A DNA stretch of 56,356 nucleotides from Protofrankia sp. CiT1 (lineage in GTDB: Bacteria > Actinomycetota > Actinomycetes > Frankiales > Frankiaceae), in the NCBI RefSeq assembly GCF_917627385.1, contig NZ_CAKJTL010000134.1, positions 46,426 to 102,781 on the forward strand, written 5' to 3'. This document shows positions 8,279 through 56,356 of this stretch, one piece after another (the stretch's first letter is position 1; each line of letters starts with the position of its first letter). A program made the translations under genes and the position numbers. The notes under the pieces were generated by a model. That model ran no database searches. It was not told the DNA's origin and saw nothing but the letters and a program-made list of their open reading frames with translations.

Positions 8279-9130
8279 TCAGCCTGCCTGGCGGGTATCC
8301 GTCCCGTCCGCGGCGTCGCGGCTGTCGCGGTCCCCGGCAATCCCGCCATGAGCGCCCGCGGCCCGAGACACCGCGGCAGCCTGGCGATCGTGCGTCCGCC
8401 CGGCGGGACCCGGAGTTCCCGTACCCCCGGCCGCCTCGACCGCGGCCTCACGCGCGGCGGCAATCTCAACCTTGGCACGCTGGGCGTACACGTCGACGTA
8501 CTCCTGGCCTGACAGCACCATAAGCTCGTACATGATCTGGTCAGTCATGGAGCGCAGCACAAAACGATCATCCGCTGTTCCCTCGTACCGGCTGAAGTCG
8601 AGGGGACGGCCGATCCGAATACCGACGCGGCGGATCCGGGGAATCACCTTCCCCTGCGGCTGCACCTCGAAAGTACCGATCATCGCGATCGGGATCACTG
8701 GAACCTTCGATTCCAGCGCCATCCGAGCGACGCCGATTTTACCACGGTACAGCCGCCCGTCGGGCGACCGGGTGCCCTCCGGATAGATGCCCAGCAGTTT
8801 GCCGTGCTGCAACACCCTGACCCCGGTTCGTAGCGCCGCGTCACTCGCGGCCCCGCCGCTGCGGTCAATAGGGAGCTGCCCCGCGCCGCTGAAGAACACC
8901 CGCTTGAGCCAGCCCTTGATCCCCGGCGCGGTGAAGTAGTCGCTTTTAGCCAGAAAGGTGACCCGGCGCGGCACGACCAGCGGGAGAAAGAAGTGGTCCG
9001 CGAAGGACAGATGATTACCCGCAAGGATGGCGGGACCCCGCTCCGGGATGTTTTCCAGCCCCTCCACCCAGGGCCGCCAGAAGAGTCGCAGGAAGGGGGT
9101 GAGAAATGCCTTGACGACCCAGTAAAACAC
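8279..9130 (-). CDS. 1-acyl-sn-glycerol-3-phosphate acyltransferase (PlsC family)
   Basis: It transfers a fatty acyl group to a lysophospholipid-type acceptor at the membrane, probably making phosphatidic acid. GTG 9130 is preceded by GGGAG at 7 nt; the protein has 283 residues. Acyltransferase motif I is NHLSFADH (HX4D), motif II GQLPIDRSGG, motif III YPEGTRSPDG with GKIG, and motif IV VPVIPIAMIG. An amphipathic or hydrophobic start (VFYWVVKAFLTPFLRLFW) suits membrane attachment. The last 40 residues are Ala/Gly/Arg-rich and lack family similarity. It corresponds to Rv2182c in the conserved mycobacterial neighbourhood. The glycosidase-like gene follows at 25 bp. The exact acceptor (lysophosphatidate or a PIM precursor) cannot be decided. 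Confidence 0.9.
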   Translation of the reverse strand: MFYWVVKAFLTPFLRLFWRPWVEGLENIPERGPAILAGNHLSFADHFFLPLVVPRRVTFLAKSDYFTAPGIKGWLKRVFFSGAGQLPIDRSGGAASDAALRTGVRVLQHGKLLGIYPEGTRSPDGRLYRGKIGVARMALESKVPVIPIAMIGTFEVQPQGKVIPRIRRVGIRIGRPLDFSRYEGTADDRFVLRSMTDQIMYELMVLSGQEYVDVYAQRAKVEIAAAREAAVEAAGGTGTPGPAGRTHDRQAAAVSRAAGAHGGIAGDRDSRDAADGTDTRQAG

Positions 9131-9499
9131 GTCAGCTCCCGGTGTGGTCGTCCACCAAATATTCGCCGGACACACCCGCGCACGGTGGCCGGAATAACCC
9201 TATGTATCCCCGCTGGTGGCGTCCACCGGCAGGTGCCGAACCATGCCAGCGTGTCGCCGCCGTCACAAGCGCCTCGCCGCAACCACCTCCGCTGCCTCCC
9301 ACCCGCGAGCACCGGCTCGGAGCCCATGCACGGGGCCGCCGGCAACGGGCGCGCCGCCTCGAGCGGCACACTGAGCATGGCCTGTCTCTCCCGGGCGTGC
9401 GAGCATGCTGCAAAACCGGTTTGCGTGACGATGACGGAGAAGCCATCCGCCCCCACGGGAGGCGAACGGTCCCGCGCATCTGACGAGAGGGCGGAAACC
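9131..9499. other. Divergent intergenic region
   Basis: These 369 bp separate the acyltransferase (minus) and the esterase (plus). Open frames through it lack ribosome-binding sites and family similarity. It should hold both promoters. I can point only to AT-richer stretches around 9159-9166 and 9196-9210, not to convincing -35/-10 pairs. Confidence 0.5.
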
Positions 9500-10297
9500 A
9501 TGGGGAGCGGACCGCGGAGTTCGGTCATGCCGGGCGCTGAGCCCTTCGAGCTCGGCGGTGGTGGCACCGGCGTGCTGCTGGTCCACGGATTCACAGGCAC
9601 ACCGCACAGCATGCGCCCATGGGGCGAGTTCCTCGCGGAGGCCGGCCTGACAGTGTGCTGTCCGCTGCTGCCGGGCCACGGCACCCGCTGGCAGGACATG
9701 AACGCCACAACCTGGCAGGACTGGTTCGGCGCGGCGGACGCCGCGTTCACGCGGCTCCGGGAACGCTGCGAGACTGTTTTCGTCATGGGGCTGTCCATGG
9801 GTGGAACGCTGACCTTGCGTCTCGCGGAGGTACACGGCTCAGCTGTGGCCGGCGCGGTCACCGTCAACCCGAGTCTCGGCACCGATCGGAAGATTTCAGT
9901 ACTCGCCCCGCTGCTCTCTCGCATCATACCGGCTGTGCCGGGGGTGGCCAGCGACATCAAAGCCCACGGCGAGCGGGAGATCGCCTATCAGCGCGTGCCG
10001 CTGCGGGCCTACGTCTCCCTGTCCCACCTGTGGCGGGTGACAGTCGCGGAACTGGGACGCATCGTGTGCCCCGTGCTGACCTTCCGCAGCCGCGTCGACC
10101 ACGTCGTCGAGGCCTCGTCCGGGCAGATCCTGCTGGCTGGAGCGGCATCGTGCACCGTCTCCGAACGTGTCCTGGAGGACAGCTATCACGTGGCGACGCT
10201 GGACAACGATCGCCAAACAATCTTCGAGGAAAGTCGTGAGTTCATCCGTACCCACGCGCTGCCGCAGGCCCAGGCCTCCGGGCCGCTCTCGGGCTGA
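9500..10297 (+). CDS. Alpha/beta hydrolase, carboxylesterase / monoacylglycerol lipase type
   Basis: It is a predicted cytoplasmic serine esterase of the Est30/monoglyceride lipase type. ATG 9500 has GAGAGGGCGG upstream; the product has 265 residues. It shows the oxyanion-loop motif VLLVHGFTG, the nucleophile elbow GLSMGG, the acid in SRVDHVV and the catalytic His in DSYHVATLDND, in the order and spacing of the family (compare the S-H-V-x-x-x-D ending of Est30). No signal peptide. It is the first gene of a pair with the membrane protein that starts 3 bp after its stop. Lipid or small acyl ester substrates are likely, given the divergent acyltransferase gene, but this is inference. Confidence 0.88.
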   Translation: MGSGPRSSVMPGAEPFELGGGGTGVLLVHGFTGTPHSMRPWGEFLAEAGLTVCCPLLPGHGTRWQDMNATTWQDWFGAADAAFTRLRERCETVFVMGLSMGGTLTLRLAEVHGSAVAGAVTVNPSLGTDRKISVLAPLLSRIIPAVPGVASDIKAHGEREIAYQRVPLRAYVSLSHLWRVTVAELGRIVCPVLTFRSRVDHVVEASSGQILLAGAASCTVSERVLEDSYHVATLDNDRQTIFEESREFIRTHALPQAQASGPLSG

Positions 10298-10300
10298 GCC

Positions 10301-10981
10301 ATGACCGACATGACACCCGGCGACCGAAAAGATTCCGATCACGGCTCGGGCCAGCGGGCGCGGCATGATGCCGAGGGCAACCGCCGCGACGGGGGCGAGG
10401 GTGGCGGCCGGGGCGAGCCGACGGGTGGGCCCGCCCAGACGTACGACGCACGCCAGTGCGGCCCCGCACCCGCGCACGGCACTTCAGACCGGGAGCCGGC
10501 ACCTGGCGATTTCCCGGCTGACGCGACGGCGGACGAAAGTTCCGCGCTCCGGGCGCCAGCGCCGGCCGCTGCCCTGAGCGACAACGCGGCGGAGTGGGAC
10601 GCGGCGTTCGCCGCGCTGGTCGCCCGCCTGACCGACGGGACAGCTGGCAGCGGAACAGCTGGCAGTGGCCCCACCTACGGCCCCGACTACGTGCCGGCCG
10701 CCGATCAGGTGGCGGGCGCTTACGGACAGTCCGATCACTACGAACCACCACCACCGCCGCCGGTACCACGGATGCGTCCTGTCACGCGGTGGGCATTGTG
10801 CTCCCTCGCGCTCGGCCTTGGAATCCTGCTCGTACCAGCGGTGGCCGGCATCAGGCAGGGCACGGGTCATGACATTGCCGGAGTCGTGCTTGTGCTGGGC
10901 GGAGTCGCCACACTGGTAGCACAGCTGGGGGATCGACCACCCACCGATTCCGACGACGGCGACGACGGCGCGGTCGTCTGA
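10301..10981 (+). CDS. Hypothetical protein with C-terminal two-helix membrane domain
   Basis: I do not recognise the family. The 226-residue product begins 3 bp after the esterase stop, so translation is probably coupled. The first 155 residues are polar and low in complexity (Gly, Ala, Pro, Asp), ending in a short PPPPPP stretch. Two hydrophobic segments follow (about 165-182, RWALCSLALGLGILLVPAVAG, and about 192-209, IAGVVLVLGGVATLVAQL). The tail is strongly acidic (DSDDGDDG). Both ends are therefore probably cytoplasmic with a single hairpin in the membrane. The pairing with an esterase suggests an envelope or lipid context, nothing more. Confidence 0.7.
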   Translation: MTDMTPGDRKDSDHGSGQRARHDAEGNRRDGGEGGGRGEPTGGPAQTYDARQCGPAPAHGTSDREPAPGDFPADATADESSALRAPAPAAALSDNAAEWDAAFAALVARLTDGTAGSGTAGSGPTYGPDYVPAADQVAGAYGQSDHYEPPPPPPVPRMRPVTRWALCSLALGLGILLVPAVAGIRQGTGHDIAGVVLVLGGVATLVAQLGDRPPTDSDDGDDGAVV

Positions 10982-11036
10982 GCCTGGCTCCGGGTGGGCC
11001 TCGGCGCCAGAGCTACGGCATGGAAGGGGCGGCTGC

Positions 11037-12308
11037 GTGCGCTTTCACGAAACGGTCGAGATCCACGGTCACCTGATGGACACCGGGGTTCTCGCTCGTG
11101 TGCTCGATGACGTCCTGAGCTACGGGGGCGATTACGAGGTCGAGAGCATTGATCTCGGCAAGAGCCACGATGACGAGTCACACGCAAAGATCATCGTCGG
11201 AGCGGATTCAGCGAACCAGCTTTCCCGGATTCTCATGCACATCCAGGTGCATGGTGTCAACAGCGTGAGCTCTGACGAGGTGCTGCTACGGCCTGCCGAG
11301 CGCGACGGCGTCTTCCCCGCGGACTTCTACTCGACCACCAATCTGGAGACCGTGGTCCATCTCGGCGGCCAGTGGGTGCCGGTGGAACATCCCGAGATGG
11401 ACTGCGGCCTGGTCGTCTCCGGCGGGCGGGTCCGCACCATCCCGGTGTCCGAGGTCCGGGCCGGCAACATGATCGTGTGTGGAGTGTCCGGAGTGAAGAC
11501 CGTGCTACCGGTCAGCGATCACTCGACCCGCATGTACGGAACCTTCCAGTCCCTGTCGTCGTCAACGACGTCGATGTCACCGCAGTACCAGGCGCTGCTG
11601 GTCCGCACGATCGCACGCCAGATCCGCGAGCTCAAGGCCGAGGGCTTCTCAGTCCTGTGGGTGGCCGGGCCGGCGGTCGTGCAGGCCGGCGCGGCTCCCG
11701 CCATGGTCGCTCTGGTCGAGGCGGGCTATGTGGACGTGTTGTTCTCCGGGAACGCGTTCGCCGCCCTCGACATCGAGGCGGCCCTCTACGGCACGGCGAT
11801 CGGCAACGAGTCGGCCCGCGCCCACACCACTGAGCGTGGTCACGAACAGCGCATCCGGACGATCAACACGATCCGGGGCGCTGGTTCGATCACCACGGCG
11901 GTTGAGGACGGCATCCTCACCAGCGGGATCATGCATGCGATCGTCAAGGCCAACAAGAAGTTCGTCCTGGTCGGCTCGGTTCGCGATGACGGTCCGCTGC
12001 CTGACGTTCATACCGATGTGCTGGCCGGGCAGCGAGCCATGCGAGAGGCCCTGCACGGTGTCGGATTCGCCATGATGATCGCATCGATGCTGCACTCGGT
12101 GGCAACCGCGAACATCCTGCCCGCATCCATCCCGGTAGCCTGTGTCGACATCGACCCGAGCAACGTCACCAGGTTGGTCGACCGCGGGTTCGCCCAGGCT
12201 GTCGGTGTCGTCACCGACAGCGGCCTGTTCCTGGAACAGCTGGCTCAGGAACTGGTCGCGGACTACCCGTCCCGCTCCGGGACGGGGCCGCTGCCGGGGC
12301 CTGCCTGA
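11037..12308 (+). CDS. TIGR00300 / LOR-SDH-domain protein, archaeal-type ornithine cyclodeaminase-like
   Basis: The 423-residue protein begins with the LOR/SDH bifunctional-enzyme conserved region (about 1-110: MRFHETVEIHGHLMDTG, then HVQVHG-type pairing and DEVLLRPAERDGVFP). The TIGR00300 body follows, with NAD-contacting segments such as VLWVAGPAVVQAGAAPAM and VDVLFSGNAFAALDIE. GTG 11037 has GGAAGGGG upstream. Methanococcal proteins of this family and the C-terminal half of cyanobacterial ArgZ/AgrE convert ornithine to proline and ammonia with NAD. Here the N-terminal arginine dihydrolase domain of ArgZ is absent, as in archaea. The enzymatic assignment is inferred from family members. It stands alone, convergent with glk at 38 bp. 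Confidence 0.82.
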   Translation: MRFHETVEIHGHLMDTGVLARVLDDVLSYGGDYEVESIDLGKSHDDESHAKIIVGADSANQLSRILMHIQVHGVNSVSSDEVLLRPAERDGVFPADFYSTTNLETVVHLGGQWVPVEHPEMDCGLVVSGGRVRTIPVSEVRAGNMIVCGVSGVKTVLPVSDHSTRMYGTFQSLSSSTTSMSPQYQALLVRTIARQIRELKAEGFSVLWVAGPAVVQAGAAPAMVALVEAGYVDVLFSGNAFAALDIEAALYGTAIGNESARAHTTERGHEQRIRTINTIRGAGSITTAVEDGILTSGIMHAIVKANKKFVLVGSVRDDGPLPDVHTDVLAGQRAMREALHGVGFAMMIASMLHSVATANILPASIPVACVDIDPSNVTRLVDRGFAQAVGVVTDSGLFLEQLAQELVADYPSRSGTGPLPGPA

Positions 12309-49606: not shown

Positions 49607-49623
49607 CTGTTGCCAGGCGCTCT
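49607..49623. repeat. Dispersed short motif, variant copy
   Basis: GCTGTTGCCAGGCGCTC in the convergent gap between the RibD-like gene and cysN. It differs from the consensus CCTGTTRCCGGTCGCTC at four positions. Confidence 0.45.
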
Positions 49624-50866
49624 AAAGAATCATGCCGGCGCCGACTGTGGACCCGGTCGCCTCGTCGATGAGGATCACGCTGCCCGTCGTCCGGTTACGC
49701 CGGTACGGGTCGAAGCACAGCGGCGTCATGGTCCGGACCGTCACCCGGCCGATATCGTTGAGCCGCAGCTCCGACACGGTCTCGTCGCGGTGCAGCGTGT
49801 CGACGTCCACCCGGTAGGCGATCTTCTTCAGCACGCCGCGCACGGACCGGGTGGTGTGTTTGATCCCGAGCCGGGCCTTGGCCGACAGTGGCGCGTCCGC
49901 CATCCAGCAGACCATCATGTCGATATCCTGACCGACCATCGGCTGGTTCGCTGGTCGAGCGATCATGTCCCCGCGGGAGACGTCCAGATCGTCTTCGAGG
50001 CGTATCGTCACCGACATCGGCGGGAAGGCCTCGGCGACCGGGCCGTCAAAGGTGTCGACGGCGGCGATCCGCGAGGTCAGACCGGACGGCAGGACGATCA
50101 CGTCGTCCCCTGGTTTGAGGACGCCACCGGCGACCTGGCCAGCGTACCCGCGGTAATCATGCAGCTCGCCGGAACGCGGCCGGACCACCCACTGCACGGG
50201 AAAGCGCACGTCGATGAGGTTGCGGTCGGAGGCGATGTGCAGCTCCTCCAGGTGATGCAGCAGCGAAGTGCCCTCGTACCAGGGGGTGCTCGGTGAACGG
50301 GAGACGATGTTGTCCCCGCCGAGCGCGGAGACCGGGATCGTCGCGACGTCGACGATCTCGAGTTTGGTGGCGAACCCCCGGAACTCATTTTTGATCTTCT
50401 CGAACACGTCTTCGTCGAACCCGACGAGGTCCATCTTGTTCACGCACAGCACCAGGTGCGGAACGCGCAGCAGGGAGGCCAGGAAGGCGTGCCGGCGGGT
50501 CTGCTGGAGCAGCCCCTTGCGCGCGTCCACCAGCAACAGCGCCAGATCAGCGGTAGACGCGCCAGTGACCATGTTGCGGGTGTACTGAACATGCCCAGGG
50601 GTGTCGGCGAGGATGAACGACCGCTTCGGTGTGGCGAAGTACCGATAGGCGACATCAATGGTGATGCCCTGTTCCCGCTCGGCTCGCAGCCCGTCGGTGA
50701 GCAGCGCCAGGTCGACGTAGGCGTCGCCGCGCTCACGGCTGGTGCGTTCCACCGCCGCCAGCTGATCGGCGAACAGCGATTTGGTGTCGAAGAGCAGCCG
50801 TCCGATCAGCGTGGACTTGCCGTCGTCGACAGAACCAGCGGTGGCGACCCGCAGCAGCTCCCCCAT
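49622..50866 (-). CDS. cysN: Sulfate adenylyltransferase subunit 1 (GTPase)
   Basis: CysN is the GTPase subunit that drives CysD in making adenosine 5'-phosphosulfate. ATG 50866 has GGGGAAG upstream and gives 414 residues. G motifs: GSVDDGKST (G1), DTPGHVQYTRN (G3), NKMDLV (G4). The EF-Tu-like beta domains follow (YAGQVAGGVLKPGDDVIVLP). It is the stand-alone form without a fused CysC domain, consistent with the separate kinase gene at 52937. It follows cysD by 16 bp. Confidence 0.96.
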   Translation of the reverse strand: MGELLRVATAGSVDDGKSTLIGRLLFDTKSLFADQLAAVERTSRERGDAYVDLALLTDGLRAEREQGITIDVAYRYFATPKRSFILADTPGHVQYTRNMVTGASTADLALLLVDARKGLLQQTRRHAFLASLLRVPHLVLCVNKMDLVGFDEDVFEKIKNEFRGFATKLEIVDVATIPVSALGGDNIVSRSPSTPWYEGTSLLHHLEELHIASDRNLIDVRFPVQWVVRPRSGELHDYRGYAGQVAGGVLKPGDDVIVLPSGLTSRIAAVDTFDGPVAEAFPPMSVTIRLEDDLDVSRGDMIARPANQPMVGQDIDMMVCWMADAPLSAKARLGIKHTTRSVRGVLKKIAYRVDVDTLHRDETVSELRLNDIGRVTVRTMTPLCFDPYRRNRTTGSVILIDEATGSTVGAGMIL

Positions 50867-50882
50867 CAGAACAGCTTCCCCA

Positions 50883-51797
50883 TCAGAAGTAGCCCTCCCT
50901 CTTGCGGTCCTCCATGGCAGCCTCGCTGACCCGGTCGTCGGCACGGGTCGCGCCGCGTTCGGTCATCCTGCTGACCGCCACCTCCGCGATCACCTCGCCG
51001 ATCGTCGCCGCGGTCGACGCGATCGCCCCGGTGCAGGACATGTCTCCGACCGTGCGGTAACGCACCTGGCGCGCAACGGCCCGCTCCCCTTCCAACGGCG
51101 GCGTCACCGGGGTCACCGCCAGCAGCATCCCGTCCCGTTCGAGCACGTCCCGGGTGTGCGCGTAGTAGATCGACGGAATGTCCAGGTTCTCCTGTGCGAT
51201 GTAGCGCCAGATGTCGAGCTCCGTCCAGTTCGACAGCGGAAAGACCCGGATGTGCTCGCCCGGACGGTGACGTCCGTTGTAGAGCGACCACAACTCAGGG
51301 CGCTGGCTCTTCGGGTCCCACTGACCGAACTCGTCCCGGAAGGAGTAGACGCGCTCCTTGGCCCGGGCCTTCTCCTCGTCCCGGCGCGCCCCGCCGAACA
51401 CCGCATCGAACTTGTTCTTCTCGATGGTGTCCAGCAGCACCGGCGTCTGCAGCTGGTTACGGGAAGCACCGGGCCGGATGTCTTCTGTGATCACTCCAGC
51501 GTCGATCGCGTCCTGGACGGAACCGACCACAAGGCGGGCCGACAGCTGCGCGACCCGGGCGTCGCGGAACTCCATCACCTCGCTGAAGTTGTGGCCGGTG
51601 TCGATGTGTACCAGCGGAAACGGCAGCTTCGCCGGCCAGAACGCCTTCTCGGCGGCCCGGAGCATGACGATCGAGTCCTTGCCGCCGGAGAACAGCAGCG
51701 CGGGACGCTCGAACTCGGCCACCACCTCCCGGAAGATGTGGATCGCCTCGGCCTCGAGCATCTGCAGATGGGTGAGTTCGTAGCCTGTGACAGGCAT
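50883..51797 (-). CDS. cysD: Sulfate adenylyltransferase subunit 2
   Basis: CysD is the catalytic ATP sulfurylase subunit. ATG 51797 follows GGGGGATTCCGC; 304 residues. The PP-loop SGGKDSIVML is at about 38-47. VHIDTGHNFSEVMEFRD, DAVFGGARRDEEKARAKER and FPLSNWTELDIWRYI are characteristic, and the end reads RKREGYF as in all CysD proteins. It is the first gene of a cysDN operon. The 202 bp upstream have short GATG-GCAACG-type direct repeats (51837-51893) and probably the promoter. Confidence 0.97.
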   Translation of the reverse strand: MPVTGYELTHLQMLEAEAIHIFREVVAEFERPALLFSGGKDSIVMLRAAEKAFWPAKLPFPLVHIDTGHNFSEVMEFRDARVAQLSARLVVGSVQDAIDAGVITEDIRPGASRNQLQTPVLLDTIEKNKFDAVFGGARRDEEKARAKERVYSFRDEFGQWDPKSQRPELWSLYNGRHRPGEHIRVFPLSNWTELDIWRYIAQENLDIPSIYYAHTRDVLERDGMLLAVTPVTPPLEGERAVARQVRYRTVGDMSCTGAIASTAATIGEVIAEVAVSRMTERGATRADDRVSEAAMEDRKREGYF

Positions 51798-51970
51798 GCG
51801 GAATCCCCCTGTCGACCCCAGTGGACAACATCGATGGATGGCAACGCCGATGGACGGCGATGCTGGTAGATGACAACGCTGGTAGATATCAGCCCAACGT
51901 AGCCGAGGAACCGGCACTCGGGACAGCGAAGCGACTCACCGGATACAAACTGTCGCATAAAGACAAACAC

Positions 51971-52017
51971 ATCGCTGATCGCTGATCAGCGATCAGCGAT
52001 CAGCGATCAGCGATCAG
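51971..52017. repeat. 30-bp perfect palindrome and 7-bp repeats at the cysQ end
   Basis: Positions 51971-52000 form a perfect palindrome centred on TGATCA, built from GATCAGC / GCTGATC units. On the right the GATCAGC unit continues to 52017 into the cysQ coding end. The cysQ stop overlaps its edge. It may act as a terminator for cysQ without U tract. Confidence 0.8.
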
Positions 52018-52845
52018 TGCCAGAATGCGGCCGGCCAGATCCGGGCGGCAGACGAGCAGGTCGGGCAGGAGCGGATCCGGCCGGTTATAGACCAGGGGGG
52101 ACCCGTCCAGCCGGCTGGTGTGCAGGCCAGCCGCACGGGCTACGGCAACCGGCGCGGCCGAGTCCCATTCGTACTGGCCGCCAGCGTGCACATAGGCGTC
52201 GGCATCGCCACGGACAACGGCCGCCACCTTCGCGCCAGCGGAACCGACCGGTACGACCGAACCGCCCAATGCCTCGGCCAGCGTGCCGACCAGCGCGGGC
52301 GCCCTCGTCCGGCTGGCCACGAACCGGGGGCCGCCCACCGGGGCGGGACGCCGCGGCAGCGGTGTGCCGGTCGCCAACGTGACGCCCTGCGCCGGGAGCG
52401 CAACAGCGCCCTGGACAAGATCGCCATCTTGCCACAACGCGACGTGCACGGCCCAGTCCAGCCGATCACGCTCGCCGAATTCACGGGTCCCGTCCAGCGG
52501 ATCGATGATCCATACCCGTCGGGCGGTCAGCCTCGCCGGGTCGTCGACCGCCTCCTCGGAGAGCACCGAGTCATGCTGGCGGTGCCGGGCGAGCGTACCC
52601 GCGAGCCACGCCTGCGAGCGGGCGTCACCAGCGTCGCGTAACGCGGCCGGGTCACCGAATCCCAGCTCCGCCCGGAGCCGCAGCAGGAGAGCGCCCGCGT
52701 CGGTGGCCAGCCACGCCGCCAGGACGGCGTCCGCGGCCTCGCCGGGCGCCGGCAGGCCGGCGCTGTCCTCATCCCGTACACCCGCCGGCCTGGCCGGATG
52801 GCGCGCGGCCGGGCCGGCCGCCGCCGCGTTCCCGTCACTGTTCAC
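52000..52845 (-). CDS. cysQ: 3'(2'),5'-bisphosphate nucleotidase family protein
   Basis: CysQ removes the 3' phosphate of PAP (or PAPS), recycling the by-product of sulfate activation. GTG 52845 gives 281 residues; the ribosome-binding site is weak and other starts are possible. The inositol-monophosphatase fold marks are LSEEAVDD (first metal-binding Glu), DPLDGTREFGER (second, with DxxDGT), and GQYEWDSAAPVAVARAAG (WD motif). The protein ends in IADR, directly in the GATC repeat region. It is divergent from cysC and adjacent to cysDN. Confidence 0.9.
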   Translation of the reverse strand: MNSDGNAAAAGPAARHPARPAGVRDEDSAGLPAPGEAADAVLAAWLATDAGALLLRLRAELGFGDPAALRDAGDARSQAWLAGTLARHRQHDSVLSEEAVDDPARLTARRVWIIDPLDGTREFGERDRLDWAVHVALWQDGDLVQGAVALPAQGVTLATGTPLPRRPAPVGGPRFVASRTRAPALVGTLAEALGGSVVPVGSAGAKVAAVVRGDADAYVHAGGQYEWDSAAPVAVARAAGLHTSRLDGSPLVYNRPDPLLPDLLVCRPDLAGRILALIADR

Positions 52846-52924
52846 CCATGGCAGTCTGCCACCGAGCGACGGGCGGGGGTGGGCCGCGGCCGCCCGTCGC
52901 CGTGGCAGGACGGACCTCAACCGC

Positions 52925-52930
52925 TACGGT
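52925..52930 (+). promoter_or_regulatory. Candidate -10 box of the cysC fusion gene
   Basis: TACGGT ends 6 nt before GTG 52937; no Shine-Dalgarno is seen. Confidence 0.45.
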
Positions 52931-52936
52931 CAGAGT

Positions 52937-54526
52937 GTGCCCACCATCCGGCAGAGGAGCGCGTTGCTGGTCGACGAGGCGCGCGCACGAGAGCTGACCA
53001 AGGCGTCACTGCGCTGGCCGTCGCTGACGCTGACAGCCACCCAACTTTCCGATCTTGAACTTCTGCTGTCCGGCGGGTATCCCGCTCTCGGCGTCCCGGC
53101 GGTGGCCGGCGATGCGTACGACGGCCCGGCACAGCTGCCGCGGCACACCGTTGAGGTGGGCGACGCCTACCCGGTGACCGCCGGGAGCGCCGACCTACCG
53201 CGCATACCGCGCCCTGGAACGACGGTCGCGCTCAGGGACTCCGAAGGCGTGATGATCGCCGCATTGCGGGTGACCGACGCGGCGGGCTCAACGTTGTCAG
53301 GCCTCGTGGAGGGGCTACGGCTGCCCGATCACCCCGACTACCCCGAGCTGCGGTTCACCCCCGCGGCGTTGCGCCTGGAGCTGCTCCGACGCGGCTGGAT
53401 CACACCGACCGGCCCGGCCGCCACCGCGCTGTGGGCCGACGGCCTGCTGCATACCGCGGACCTGGACCGCATCGAAGCCCTCGCCGCCGCCGGGAACAGC
53501 ATCGTCGTGCTCGCCGCGGTCGGTGGCGCGGATCCCGCGGACGCTCGTCATCACCTGCGCGTACGCTGCCTGCGAGCGGCGCTCGCCACGCTGAGCGACG
53601 TTCGCGTGATGCTCGCCCTGGTTCCGGTCCGTGCGATGCCGCGGCTGACCGAGGCGGTCGCCTTCGGCCCCGACAACACGATCCACGCGGGGGCCACCAC
53701 CGGCGACCAGTCGGACGCCGGCCAGGCAACAGACCAGACAACAGGCCACCGGCCGGCCGACGACCGGGAGACCGAGCCCGCGCTCGCCGCGGAAATCATC
53801 CACCGGACGCAGGTCTCGCTCGCCTACGGGCTCGGCTCAATGATCGTCGGACCAGCGCCGAACGCGCCCGGAGCAAGCGCGCTGGCGCTGCTGCTCGACC
53901 ACGGAACACGGCTGCCACCCATGCTCACACCACCCGCGGTCGCCGCCGAGCTGGTCCGGGCACAGCCACCGCGGGGTGAACGAGGGTTCACCGTGATGTT
54001 CACCGGCCTGTCCGGATCGGGCAAGTCCACCCTGGCTGGACTGCTCGCCTGCCGCCTGCTGGAACGCGGTGACCGACGGGTGACGCTCCTGGACGGGGAC
54101 GTCGTCCGCCTGCACCTGTCCAAGGGGCTCGGTTTCTCCCGCGAGGACCGGGACATCAACGTGCTGCGGATCGGCTTTGTCGCCGCGGCCGTCACCGCGG
54201 CGGGCGGCACCGCCGTGTGCGCGCCGATCGCCCCTTACGGCACCGTCCGACGGCAGGTCAGAACGATGGTCGAGGACAGTGGAGGTGGGTTCGTCCTAGT
54301 CCATGTGGCCACCCCGCTGGAGATCTGCGAGGCACGTGACCGCAAGGGCTTGTACGCCAAGGCGCGCGCCGGCATCATCCCGTCCTTCACCGGGGTGTCC
54401 GATCCCTATGAGGAACCCACGGATGCCGAGATCGTCATCGACACCACGCAAACATCACCGCAGGCCGCGGTCCAGAGCATCCTCGACCACCTCCATACCC
54501 ACGGCTGGCTCACACCCACCCCCTAA
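52937..54526 (+). CDS. cysC: APS kinase with degenerate ATP-sulfurylase-like N-terminal domain
   Basis: The 529-residue protein combines two sulfate-activation folds. Residues 350-529 form an intact adenylylsulfate kinase: GLSGSGKST (357-365), DGDVVRLHLSKGLGFSREDRDIN, APIAPYG and FTGVSDPYEEP. Residues 1-330 follow the ATP sulfurylase layout (LTATQLSDLELLLSGGYPALG like the DLELL-GAFSPL-GF motif; TVALRDSEGVMIAAL), but the active-site QxRNPxHxxH becomes a segment around GGADPADARHH and GRDHAGPG becomes GPAPNAPG (about 304-311). Thus CysDN should supply APS, and this protein makes PAPS. The N-terminal domain may bind APS or be regulatory. GTG 52937 has a TACGGT box. Confidence 0.9.
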   Translation: MPTIRQRSALLVDEARARELTKASLRWPSLTLTATQLSDLELLLSGGYPALGVPAVAGDAYDGPAQLPRHTVEVGDAYPVTAGSADLPRIPRPGTTVALRDSEGVMIAALRVTDAAGSTLSGLVEGLRLPDHPDYPELRFTPAALRLELLRRGWITPTGPAATALWADGLLHTADLDRIEALAAAGNSIVVLAAVGGADPADARHHLRVRCLRAALATLSDVRVMLALVPVRAMPRLTEAVAFGPDNTIHAGATTGDQSDAGQATDQTTGHRPADDRETEPALAAEIIHRTQVSLAYGLGSMIVGPAPNAPGASALALLLDHGTRLPPMLTPPAVAAELVRAQPPRGERGFTVMFTGLSGSGKSTLAGLLACRLLERGDRRVTLLDGDVVRLHLSKGLGFSREDRDINVLRIGFVAAAVTAAGGTAVCAPIAPYGTVRRQVRTMVEDSGGGFVLVHVATPLEICEARDRKGLYAKARAGIIPSFTGVSDPYEEPTDAEIVIDTTQTSPQAAVQSILDHLHTHGWLTPTP

Positions 54527-54696
54527 ATGGGAGCTACCGGGCCGCCGCAGGGCAGGATCGGTGCCGGTAGCCGCCGGCAGATGAGCACTCTCGCCCTCTG
54601 ACCGGCGAGGAGCGGCTGGAGACAGCACCGTCGGCCGACCACGAGCCCGCCGCCGATTCGCGGCCCATGCTCGCGCGTCTCCTGCGAACACACACG
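54527..54696. other. Intergenic stretch before the radical SAM gene
   Basis: No promoter or gene is convincing. A frame open from 54571 runs into the radical SAM gene, so the true start may lie anywhere from here to about 55050. Confidence 0.4.
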
Positions 54697-56356
54697 ATGG
54701 AGATCATCTTTGCCCTCGGCGACCGCGACGCACCGACCCGCTACCGCACCCTCACAACCCCGCTGCTCCCCCGCTGCGCAGCAGCCTCGCCTTCTGGGCG
54801 CCAAGCTCTGCTAACGCTGCCCAGCGCCCAATCGGCGTCCGGAACGCGAAACGCCCCGGGCGGTCTCGGCGAACCGTCGGGGCGTCGCTACGACCATTTG
54901 ACCCCGCCCAGGTTCAACCAGATCCGCCATGCTCGGCACGGGGACTTGGCTGACGACACGCTGGACCGGCGACTGGCGGAGCTGGCGGCCGACCGCCCGG
55001 GCATCGTCTTCGACACGTGGGCGTTGGCATGGCTGGCACCTGGGCCGATGATGCGCGTATGGATCGAGTCCGATCTGGAATCCCGCGCCCGCACGTGTCA
55101 TGTGTCCCAAACACACACGGCCCTGTCGCTGCCCGAATGCCGTGATCTCGCGCGGGACAAGGACGAGGACACCCGCGCGAACTTCCTCCGCCGGCATGGT
55201 TTCGACTTGTTCACCGACCGCCACCGCTACGACCTGGTGCTCTGTAACTCCCACGTGATACCGGTCGCGGATCGCTCGTGCGCGGACAACGGAATCGCGG
55301 TCTTCGCCCCGGTCGTCGGTGAGGCTGTGTCCGCGCTGCTGGCACAGCGCCCGATCCACGACCTTGCCGCACTCGCCTACCGCCGTCCGGCGGAAATCCT
55401 CCGTATCGGCGCTGTTCAGCCCGACGAGCTGGGCCTGGACCTCACCGGCTATGACGTTGTAGGGTTCAGCCTCGCTTCTTCGGCGACCTACGGGTTCATG
55501 CGGGAGGTCCGCGAGCACAGTCAGATCGACCCTGGCGCGCTGGTGATGGTCGGCGGCGTGCACGCCAACTTCTACCCCAAGGAGTCGTTAGCCGACTTCC
55601 GCGCGGATGTGCTCTGCGAGGGCGAGTCGGAAGAAGCGATCGTCGAGGTGCTGGACCGGGCCGGCGCCGGCCGCTCCTTCGCCGGTGTTGGTGGCGCCCG
55701 CTGGGTCGAGAACGGGCAGGTTCGCGTCGAGCCACAGCGCCGGCTGATGAAGGACATTGACCGACTGCCTCTGCCTGCCCGGCATCTGCTGCCCGACGAG
55801 GACGTCGTGATGGCCGACAGGCTCGCCGGCCGGGACATCAGGATGGCGCACGTGATGTTCAGTCGGGGGTGCCCATTCCCGTGCTCGTTCTGCGCGGCTG
55901 GGCAGACCCGCATCCAGTACCGGTCCGGGGCCAGCGCCCGCACCGAGCTGACCCACCTCGTCGACCGGTACGGGGTGCGGGGGTTCGCCATCGTTGACGA
56001 CAACTTTATCGTCAACAAGCGGAAGGTCTCCGACATCTGCGACGCGATCGTCGATCTTGACCTGTCCTGGTCGGCGCTGTCCCGGGTCGACACCGTTGAC
56101 GCGGCCCTGCTGAAGACGATGGCGGCAGCGGGCTGCATTGAGATCAGATACGGTGTCGAGTCCGGCAGCGAAGCCCTGCTGCGGGCGATGCGGAAGAACA
56201 CCACCCGCGAGCAGATCAAGGCGGCGTTCGCCGCGACCACCGACGCCGGGATCGGCGGCAAGGCGTTCATCATCCACGGGTTTCCCGGCGAGAGCGCCGA
56301 GACGACCGCGGAGACGATGAGCCTGCTGACCGAGCTAGTGGTCGCCGCCGGAAGTT
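54697..56356 (+). CDS. B12-binding radical SAM protein with nucleotide-kinase-like N-terminal segment (incomplete, runs off the window)
   Basis: One frame is open from 54571 to the window edge without stop. The part encoded at 54913-55350 resembles the C-terminal two-thirds of (d)CMP-kinase-like P-loop kinases (RVWIESDLESRARTC, ARDKDEDTRANFLRRHGFDLFTDRHRYDLVL). No GxGKS/T loop is found in any plus-strand frame upstream. A B12-binding-like domain follows (YDVVGFSLASSATYGFM, MVGGVHANFYP, LCEGESEEAIVEVL), then the radical SAM core with SRGCPFPCSFCAAG (CxxxCxxC, Cys from 55870), AIVDDNFIV and RYGVESGSEALLRAM. Start is unsure (ATG 54667, 54697 or 55048), with no ribosome-binding site. One TTA codon occurs near 55588. 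Substrate unknown. Confidence 0.7.
   Translation, partial: MEIIFALGDRDAPTRYRTLTTPLLPRCAAASPSGRQALLTLPSAQSASGTRNAPGGLGEPSGRRYDHLTPPRFNQIRHARHGDLADDTLDRRLAELAADRPGIVFDTWALAWLAPGPMMRVWIESDLESRARTCHVSQTHTALSLPECRDLARDKDEDTRANFLRRHGFDLFTDRHRYDLVLCNSHVIPVADRSCADNGIAVFAPVVGEAVSALLAQRPIHDLAALAYRRPAEILRIGAVQPDELGLDLTGYDVVGFSLASSATYGFMREVREHSQIDPGALVMVGGVHANFYPKESLADFRADVLCEGESEEAIVEVLDRAGAGRSFAGVGGARWVENGQVRVEPQRRLMKDIDRLPLPARHLLPDEDVVMADRLAGRDIRMAHVMFSRGCPFPCSFCAAGQTRIQYRSGASARTELTHLVDRYGVRGFAIVDDNFIVNKRKVSDICDAIVDLDLSWSALSRVDTVDAALLKTMAAAGCIEIRYGVESGSEALLRAMRKNTTREQIKAAFAATTDAGIGGKAFIIHGFPGESAETTAETMSLLTELVVAAGS

Follow-up and report, generated by a model that had tools for sequence, protein, structure and literature searches.

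A truncated kinase fused in frame to a B12-radical SAM enzyme in Protofrankia sp. CiT1 is very probably a decaying chimera of two neighboring operon genes

The stretch of DNA analyzed here (the window; 56,356 nucleotides) comes from Protofrankia sp. CiT1, whose assembly is a 5.02-Mb draft of 191 contigs with a gap of 242 N just beyond the window end. Toward that end, positions 54841-56356 translate as a single frame with 0 stops, within a stop-to-stop opening that starts at 54571 (Table 1). Three Pfam domains are recognized in this frame: (i) PF13189 (Cytidylate_kin2) at residues 39-138 (E 6e-8), where the match covers positions 80-176 of 176 in the profile and therefore represents the C-terminal half only, (ii) PF02310 (B12-binding) at residues 203-270, the N-terminus of which is absent, and (iii) PF04055 (Radical_SAM) at residues 339-496. 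Identity to the best relatives, 62-66% for the kinase part and 76-77% for the radical SAM part, is far above chance. Upstream of the kinase part, none of the six frames encodes a P-loop (GxxxxGK[ST]) from approximately 54275 to 55074. To this extent an earlier note on the same DNA, which had described a continuous frame leading from a truncated nucleotide-kinase-like sequence without a P-loop to a B12-binding domain and a CxxxCxxC radical SAM core, is confirmed by translation, by Pfam, and by the full-length P-loop genes of relatives. Upstream of the frame (49622-54526), the genes were read from their sequence as sulfate activation genes. The minus strand carries a CysN-like gene, a CysD-like gene, and a gene for a CysQ-like phosphatase, whereas the plus strand encodes a protein in which a sulfate-adenylyltransferase-like part is fused to an APS-kinase-like C-terminus.

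Table 1. Features of the fused frame and its breakpoints, in window coordinates.
Feature	Position	Strand	Remarks
Short repeat, 30-36 bp	54877..54912	+	Three other genomic copies, 86-93%
PF13189 (d)CMP-kinase-like remnant	54910..55410	+	Residues 52-218 of 234
Deletion junction	55411..55413	+	~240 bp absent relative to relatives (alignments)
B12-radical SAM gene remnant	55414..56337	+	Residues ~47-354 of 437
Truncated B12-binding domain	55447..55650	+	Profile 51-120 of 121; intact relative 9-120
CPFPCSFC, intact [4Fe-4S]-binding CxxxCxxC motif	55870..55893	+	Translation
Left inverted repeat GTGGTCGCCGCCGGAAGTT of inserted small mobile element	56338..56356	+	TA target duplication

In the relatives of this locus, the two parts of the frame are separate genes. 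The kinase and the B12-radical SAM enzyme are full-length neighbors in 5 Frankiaceae loci and in 11 other actinobacterial loci (16/16); the intact order is nucleotide kinase, B12-radical SAM enzyme, AlkZ-like protein, and MazG. Relatives within the family include Frankia torreyi and Pseudofrankia asymbiotica. In the Frankiaceae loci, a kinase of about 234 residues with a P-loop (GLTAAGKTTHA...) ends at its own stop codon and is followed, after approximately 54 bp, by a radical SAM protein of 437 residues, which begins at its own start codon with MRVxLLYPEVYDMARFRERRREFPPFG. Downstream of the latter, Pfam identifies an AlkZ-like gene (PF06224) and then a gene for a MazG-like pyrophosphohydrolase (PF03819). 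Both are kept by the source genome past the window (L004 6342-7532 and 7582-7917, respectively), the MazG assignment resting on similarity to the relatives' gene. Homologs that start at the B12-binding domain had been named beforehand as an observation that would speak against a new fusion enzyme, and such homologs were indeed found. Likewise, the kinase-like part, which the note had taken for a domain of the fusion, is elsewhere a separate full-length P-loop kinase gene. No kinase-radical SAM fusion was seen among the loci read, and a search for the same order of domains in one frame of another genome yielded none, the genes being separate in all 16 kinase-adjoining loci. Two apparent fusions, open frames of 711 and 741 residues in G027 and G031, were rejected, as they consist of two same-frame genes split by a stop codon.

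When compared with these intact genes, the window copies are damaged at three points. The kinase remnant lacks its first 51 residues, including the P-loop GLTAAGKTTHA that is invariant in relatives, and its last ~16. Its C-terminal half retains the substrate-binding and lid region, yet Thr stands in place of Lys113, a residue that all seven aligned intact kinases share. The short repeat, which carries a GTCGCTACGAC palindrome, sits exactly at the 5' breakpoint of this remnant. At the deletion junction, the radical SAM protein has been deprived of its first ~46 residues, and the kinase tail, the stop codon, and the ~54-bp spacer are gone as well; it is this loss that joined the two frames. The near-invariant N-terminus of the radical SAM family (YPEVYDMARF...RxEFPPFG) is thus missing, and the B12-binding domain, deprived of these ~46 residues and of the invariant EFPP.G motif, is incomplete. 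Between the breakpoints, 1.4 kb run without a stop or frameshift, and neither part contains indels.

The third point of damage is an insertion. The frame runs into GAGCTA and breaks off in GTGGTCGCCGCCGGAAGTT, which occupies the final 19 bases of the window. This 19-mer has 69 copies in the genome (≤2 mismatches) versus 0 for a reversed-pattern control, and it makes up the inverted termini of elements that are most often 161 bp long; most of the complete copies lie between TA or TNA duplications. Past the 242-N gap, ACCAC/TAGGCAGC corresponds to the other end of the element (right end at L004 6025) and is followed by the expected C-terminus. This C-terminus resumes in another frame, beyond the element and the gap, so that the FHIHHNxxHWWG region within the last ~83 residues is cut off. 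In silico removal of the insert restores ELGSSLSRVSLF and brings the C-terminus back in frame, and the flanks joined at one TA read ...LLTELGSSLSRVSLFRFVPLPGTQVYADP..., in agreement with the relatives. A typical 161-bp copy placed in silico at the site leads to a stop codon when inserted one way round and shifts the frame when turned the other way; 161 bp is the typical length of copies elsewhere in the genome, and the 242 N at the site itself are a gap estimate.

The family has the inverted ends, target duplication, and many copies by which MITEs are recognized, with the right end at the site comprising five visible bases and the interior lying in the gap. MITEs of the IS5/IS427 type likewise have short, near-perfect 19-bp inverted ends, TA/TNA duplications, and many copies; the element presumably belongs to this type, as judged from its target duplication. 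Many copies of the family (e.g., L039 1501-1661, L059 1501-1661, and L061 1501-1660) lie at contig ends or gaps, which suggests that the element itself probably breaks the assembly. In genomes of cluster-2 Frankia (Protofrankia), abundant transposases and genome instability have been described (PMC6735867).

With a probability of roughly 90%, we consider that the frame is a chimera in decay, formed from two neighboring genes of a patchily distributed kinase/B12-radical SAM/AlkZ-like/MazG operon. A deletion joined the remnant of the kinase gene, its 5' half gone, to that of the radical SAM gene, and the MITE-like element interrupts the latter near its 3' end; given these three lesions, the locus should make neither complete enzyme. 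Three observations weigh against this reading: the 1.4 kb that remain open, the low dN/dS, and a draft assembly interrupted by a gap just where it matters; in view of the first two, the frame may retain some residual role. When the radical SAM remnant is compared with intact copies, dN/dS is 0.22-0.27, whereas intact copies compared with one another give 0.12-0.24; the corresponding values for the kinase are 0.20-0.33 and 0.19-0.41. That the ratios of the remnants remain so near those of intact copies indicates that the decay is recent, and the frame is a recent pseudogene rather than a new enzyme class.

It is very improbable that the chimera is instead a working protein, in which the radical SAM core would use the C-terminal half of the kinase to bind nucleotides. 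The open frame, the absence of indels in either part, the modest dN/dS, and the intact CxxxCxxC motif speak for such a protein; however, it would have to function without the P-loop half and Lys113 of the kinase, without the N-terminal part of the B12-binding domain (EFPP.G), and without the C-terminal FHIHHNxxHWWG region, and its fusion occurs in no other genome searched. Just as improbably, the junction could be a misassembly of a genome that in reality has two intact genes, as might be suggested by a draft in 191 contigs that has both a gap and repeats at the very site, but the junction lies within contiguous sequence away from the gap, a search of the same genome with the whole frame (a query without the N-terminal half of the kinase) found elsewhere only distant radical SAM matches, the inserted element is bordered by a regular TA duplication and has many matching copies in the genome, and both parts diverge coherently from their relatives.

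The new enzyme architecture put forward in the earlier note thus gives way to genes that are separate in relatives, a deletion, and the insertion of a repeat. Of its idea that nucleotide recognition is coupled to radical chemistry, one part survives, namely that the kinase belongs with the radical SAM enzyme, but it does so as an adjoining gene and not as a fused domain. With the claimed enzyme falling away, no effort need go into expressing a broken gene, and the locus shows how a deletion in a GC-rich genome can join two genes in frame so that the chimera looks like a fusion of domains.

The intact genes can be compared with known proteins. The intact kinase covers the full PF13189 profile, P-loop included, in contrast to the window copy with its C-terminal half. 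Its best NCBIfam match is the (d)CMP kinase TIGR02173, below the cut-off, and its model (pLDDT 81) resembles shikimate, CMP, and adenylate kinases with moderate scores. The radical SAM protein has in common with OxsB, AprD4, MgmA, and TsrM a B12-binding domain followed by a CxxxCxxC radical SAM core; the fold of its model (pLDDT 85) matches MgmA (9ccb), AprD4 (6fd2), TsrM (6wte), and OxsB (5ul4), to which its identity is ~16-19%. At least 25 NCBIfam models match it, all far below their cut-offs, so the enzyme is, as judged from its sequence, a separate cobalamin-dependent subfamily. OxsB-type enzymes act on a purine deoxynucleotide, but the relation here is only a distant one, by sequence and fold. 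A further parallel is offered by vertebrates, in which the genes for viperin (RSAD2) and CMPK2 are paired: there, too, a radical SAM enzyme adjoins a nucleotide monophosphate kinase. Viperin, however, has no B12 domain, whereas the enzyme described here is closest to B12 enzymes in sequence and fold.

The AlkZ-like protein matches PF06224, the family of the AlkZ/YcaQ (HTH_42) DNA glycosylases, above the cut-off. In that group, the catalytic motif (Q/H)-aliphatic-(Q/D) is required (PMC9040887), but the operon protein has HAA instead. This HAA is invariant in 16/16 AlkZ-like sequences aligned (e.g., L078 8335-9531), a subfamily that is encoded next to this radical SAM enzyme wherever loci were read, and it aligns with the catalytic QAQ of AlkZ in an alignment to AlkZ (5uuj) that is weak. 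The substitution makes the glycosylase activity of the AlkZ-like protein doubtful; the protein may act by binding instead of cutting, or its mechanism may be a different one.

A scan of species genomes gave 17 loci. Outside Frankiaceae, kinase-adjoining loci were found in Umezawaea, Solihabitans, Nonomuraea (two), Streptosporangium, Pseudosporangium, Streptomonospora, Nocardiopsis (two), Micromonospora rosaria, and Actinophytocola. In these 11 loci, the radical SAM enzyme shows 65-69% identity, and the gene for a P-loop kinase immediately precedes it, in several loci overlapping it by 4 bp. This kinase is thymidylate-kinase-like and not of the PF13189 type: PF02223 was matched above the cut-off in six tested, and four more align with those six. 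The Umezawaea kinase shares the P-loop and the C-terminal segments of the other thymidylate-kinase-like copies but appears incomplete. In most of the 11 loci, an AlkZ-like gene and a MazG gene come next; the exceptions, as returned by a simple gene caller, are Solihabitans, where the AlkZ-like gene was not recognized, and Actinophytocola, where MazG was called on the opposite strand. An Actinoallomurus locus has no kinase, and two short metagenome contigs are incomplete. At E 1e-150, the radical SAM protein is present in 6/394 genomes of the class, and four genus mates have neither this protein (same threshold) nor the AlkZ-like gene. This rarity and the absence from the genus mates suggest that the operon of the source genome was likely gained by transfer and then decayed. 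On plasmids, the radical SAM protein was not found at E 1e-60. The operon gave no convincing match to a defence family in PADLOC, and neither the open-access literature on this gene combination nor that on pVip/kinase pairs yielded a relevant paper. The intact operon is a rare, patchily distributed, and apparently undescribed variant of nucleotide-modifying radical SAM systems.

What this operon does is much less certain than the remnant nature of the window frame. The same B12-radical SAM enzyme is accompanied, according to lineage, by two families of nucleotide kinase in a compact operon. A nucleotide kinase thus seems to be needed, with its family being interchangeable (PF13189 in Frankiaceae, thymidylate-kinase-like elsewhere), which points to a nucleotide as the substrate of the radical SAM enzyme. 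This swap is a stronger pointer than homology, and it makes the chemistry of the enzyme directly testable. The intact operon probably makes an unusual or modified nucleotide. From the gene content, it can be proposed that the radical SAM enzyme would alter a nucleotide or nucleoside, that the kinase would add one phosphate to the product or the substrate, and that MazG and the AlkZ-like protein would limit damage by the product in the nucleotide pool and DNA of the producer. At slightly under even odds, the intact operon may be an undescribed pathway to a modified nucleotide antimetabolite, antibiotic or antiphage, with built-in protection of the producer.

Somewhat more doubtful is a pathway to a nucleoside antibiotic or genotoxin like that of oxetanocin (OxsB), with the AlkZ-like protein and MazG providing self-protection. 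MazG-type enzymes hydrolyze nucleoside triphosphates, as would suit this role, and OxsB is among the solved relatives by both sequence and fold. Moreover, AlkZ relatives confer self-resistance within genotoxin clusters (PMC9040887). However, the operon is very small and has no constant exporter or tailoring set, and the HAA that replaces the catalytic QAQ weakens the case for a protective glycosylase. An antiphage system comparable to viperin and CMPK2, in which the radical SAM enzyme would make a chain-terminating nucleotide, is unlikely. A thymidylate- or CMP-kinase-type kinase directly upstream in 16 loci and the rare, patchy distribution are consistent with such a system, but the enzyme is B12-dependent and closest to AprD4, MgmA, TsrM, and OxsB rather than to viperin, PADLOC gave no strong match, and the AlkZ-like and MazG genes suggest a producer that protects itself.

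Other gene sets were observed near these operons or in related genomes. Next to two Frankiaceae operons (L033 1-5308 and L074 7377-12719) lie an NsdA-like regulator, an adenylate-kinase-like gene, a diverged SAH-hydrolase-like gene, and a putative methyltransferase, a set of neighbors that is conserved in both Frankia torreyi and the second genome of the pair. A second, related operon is present in other Frankiaceae (L036 7981-11744, L035 7703-3941, and L037 ~8409-12095). It starts with a kinase of the PF13189 type (41-49% identity to the window copy), followed by an adenosine-deaminase-like protein and a P-loop kinase, and further includes a 317-residue protein with no Pfam match and a protein that resembles HAM1/ITPase in sequence; it constitutes another nucleotide-handling set, one without a radical SAM enzyme.
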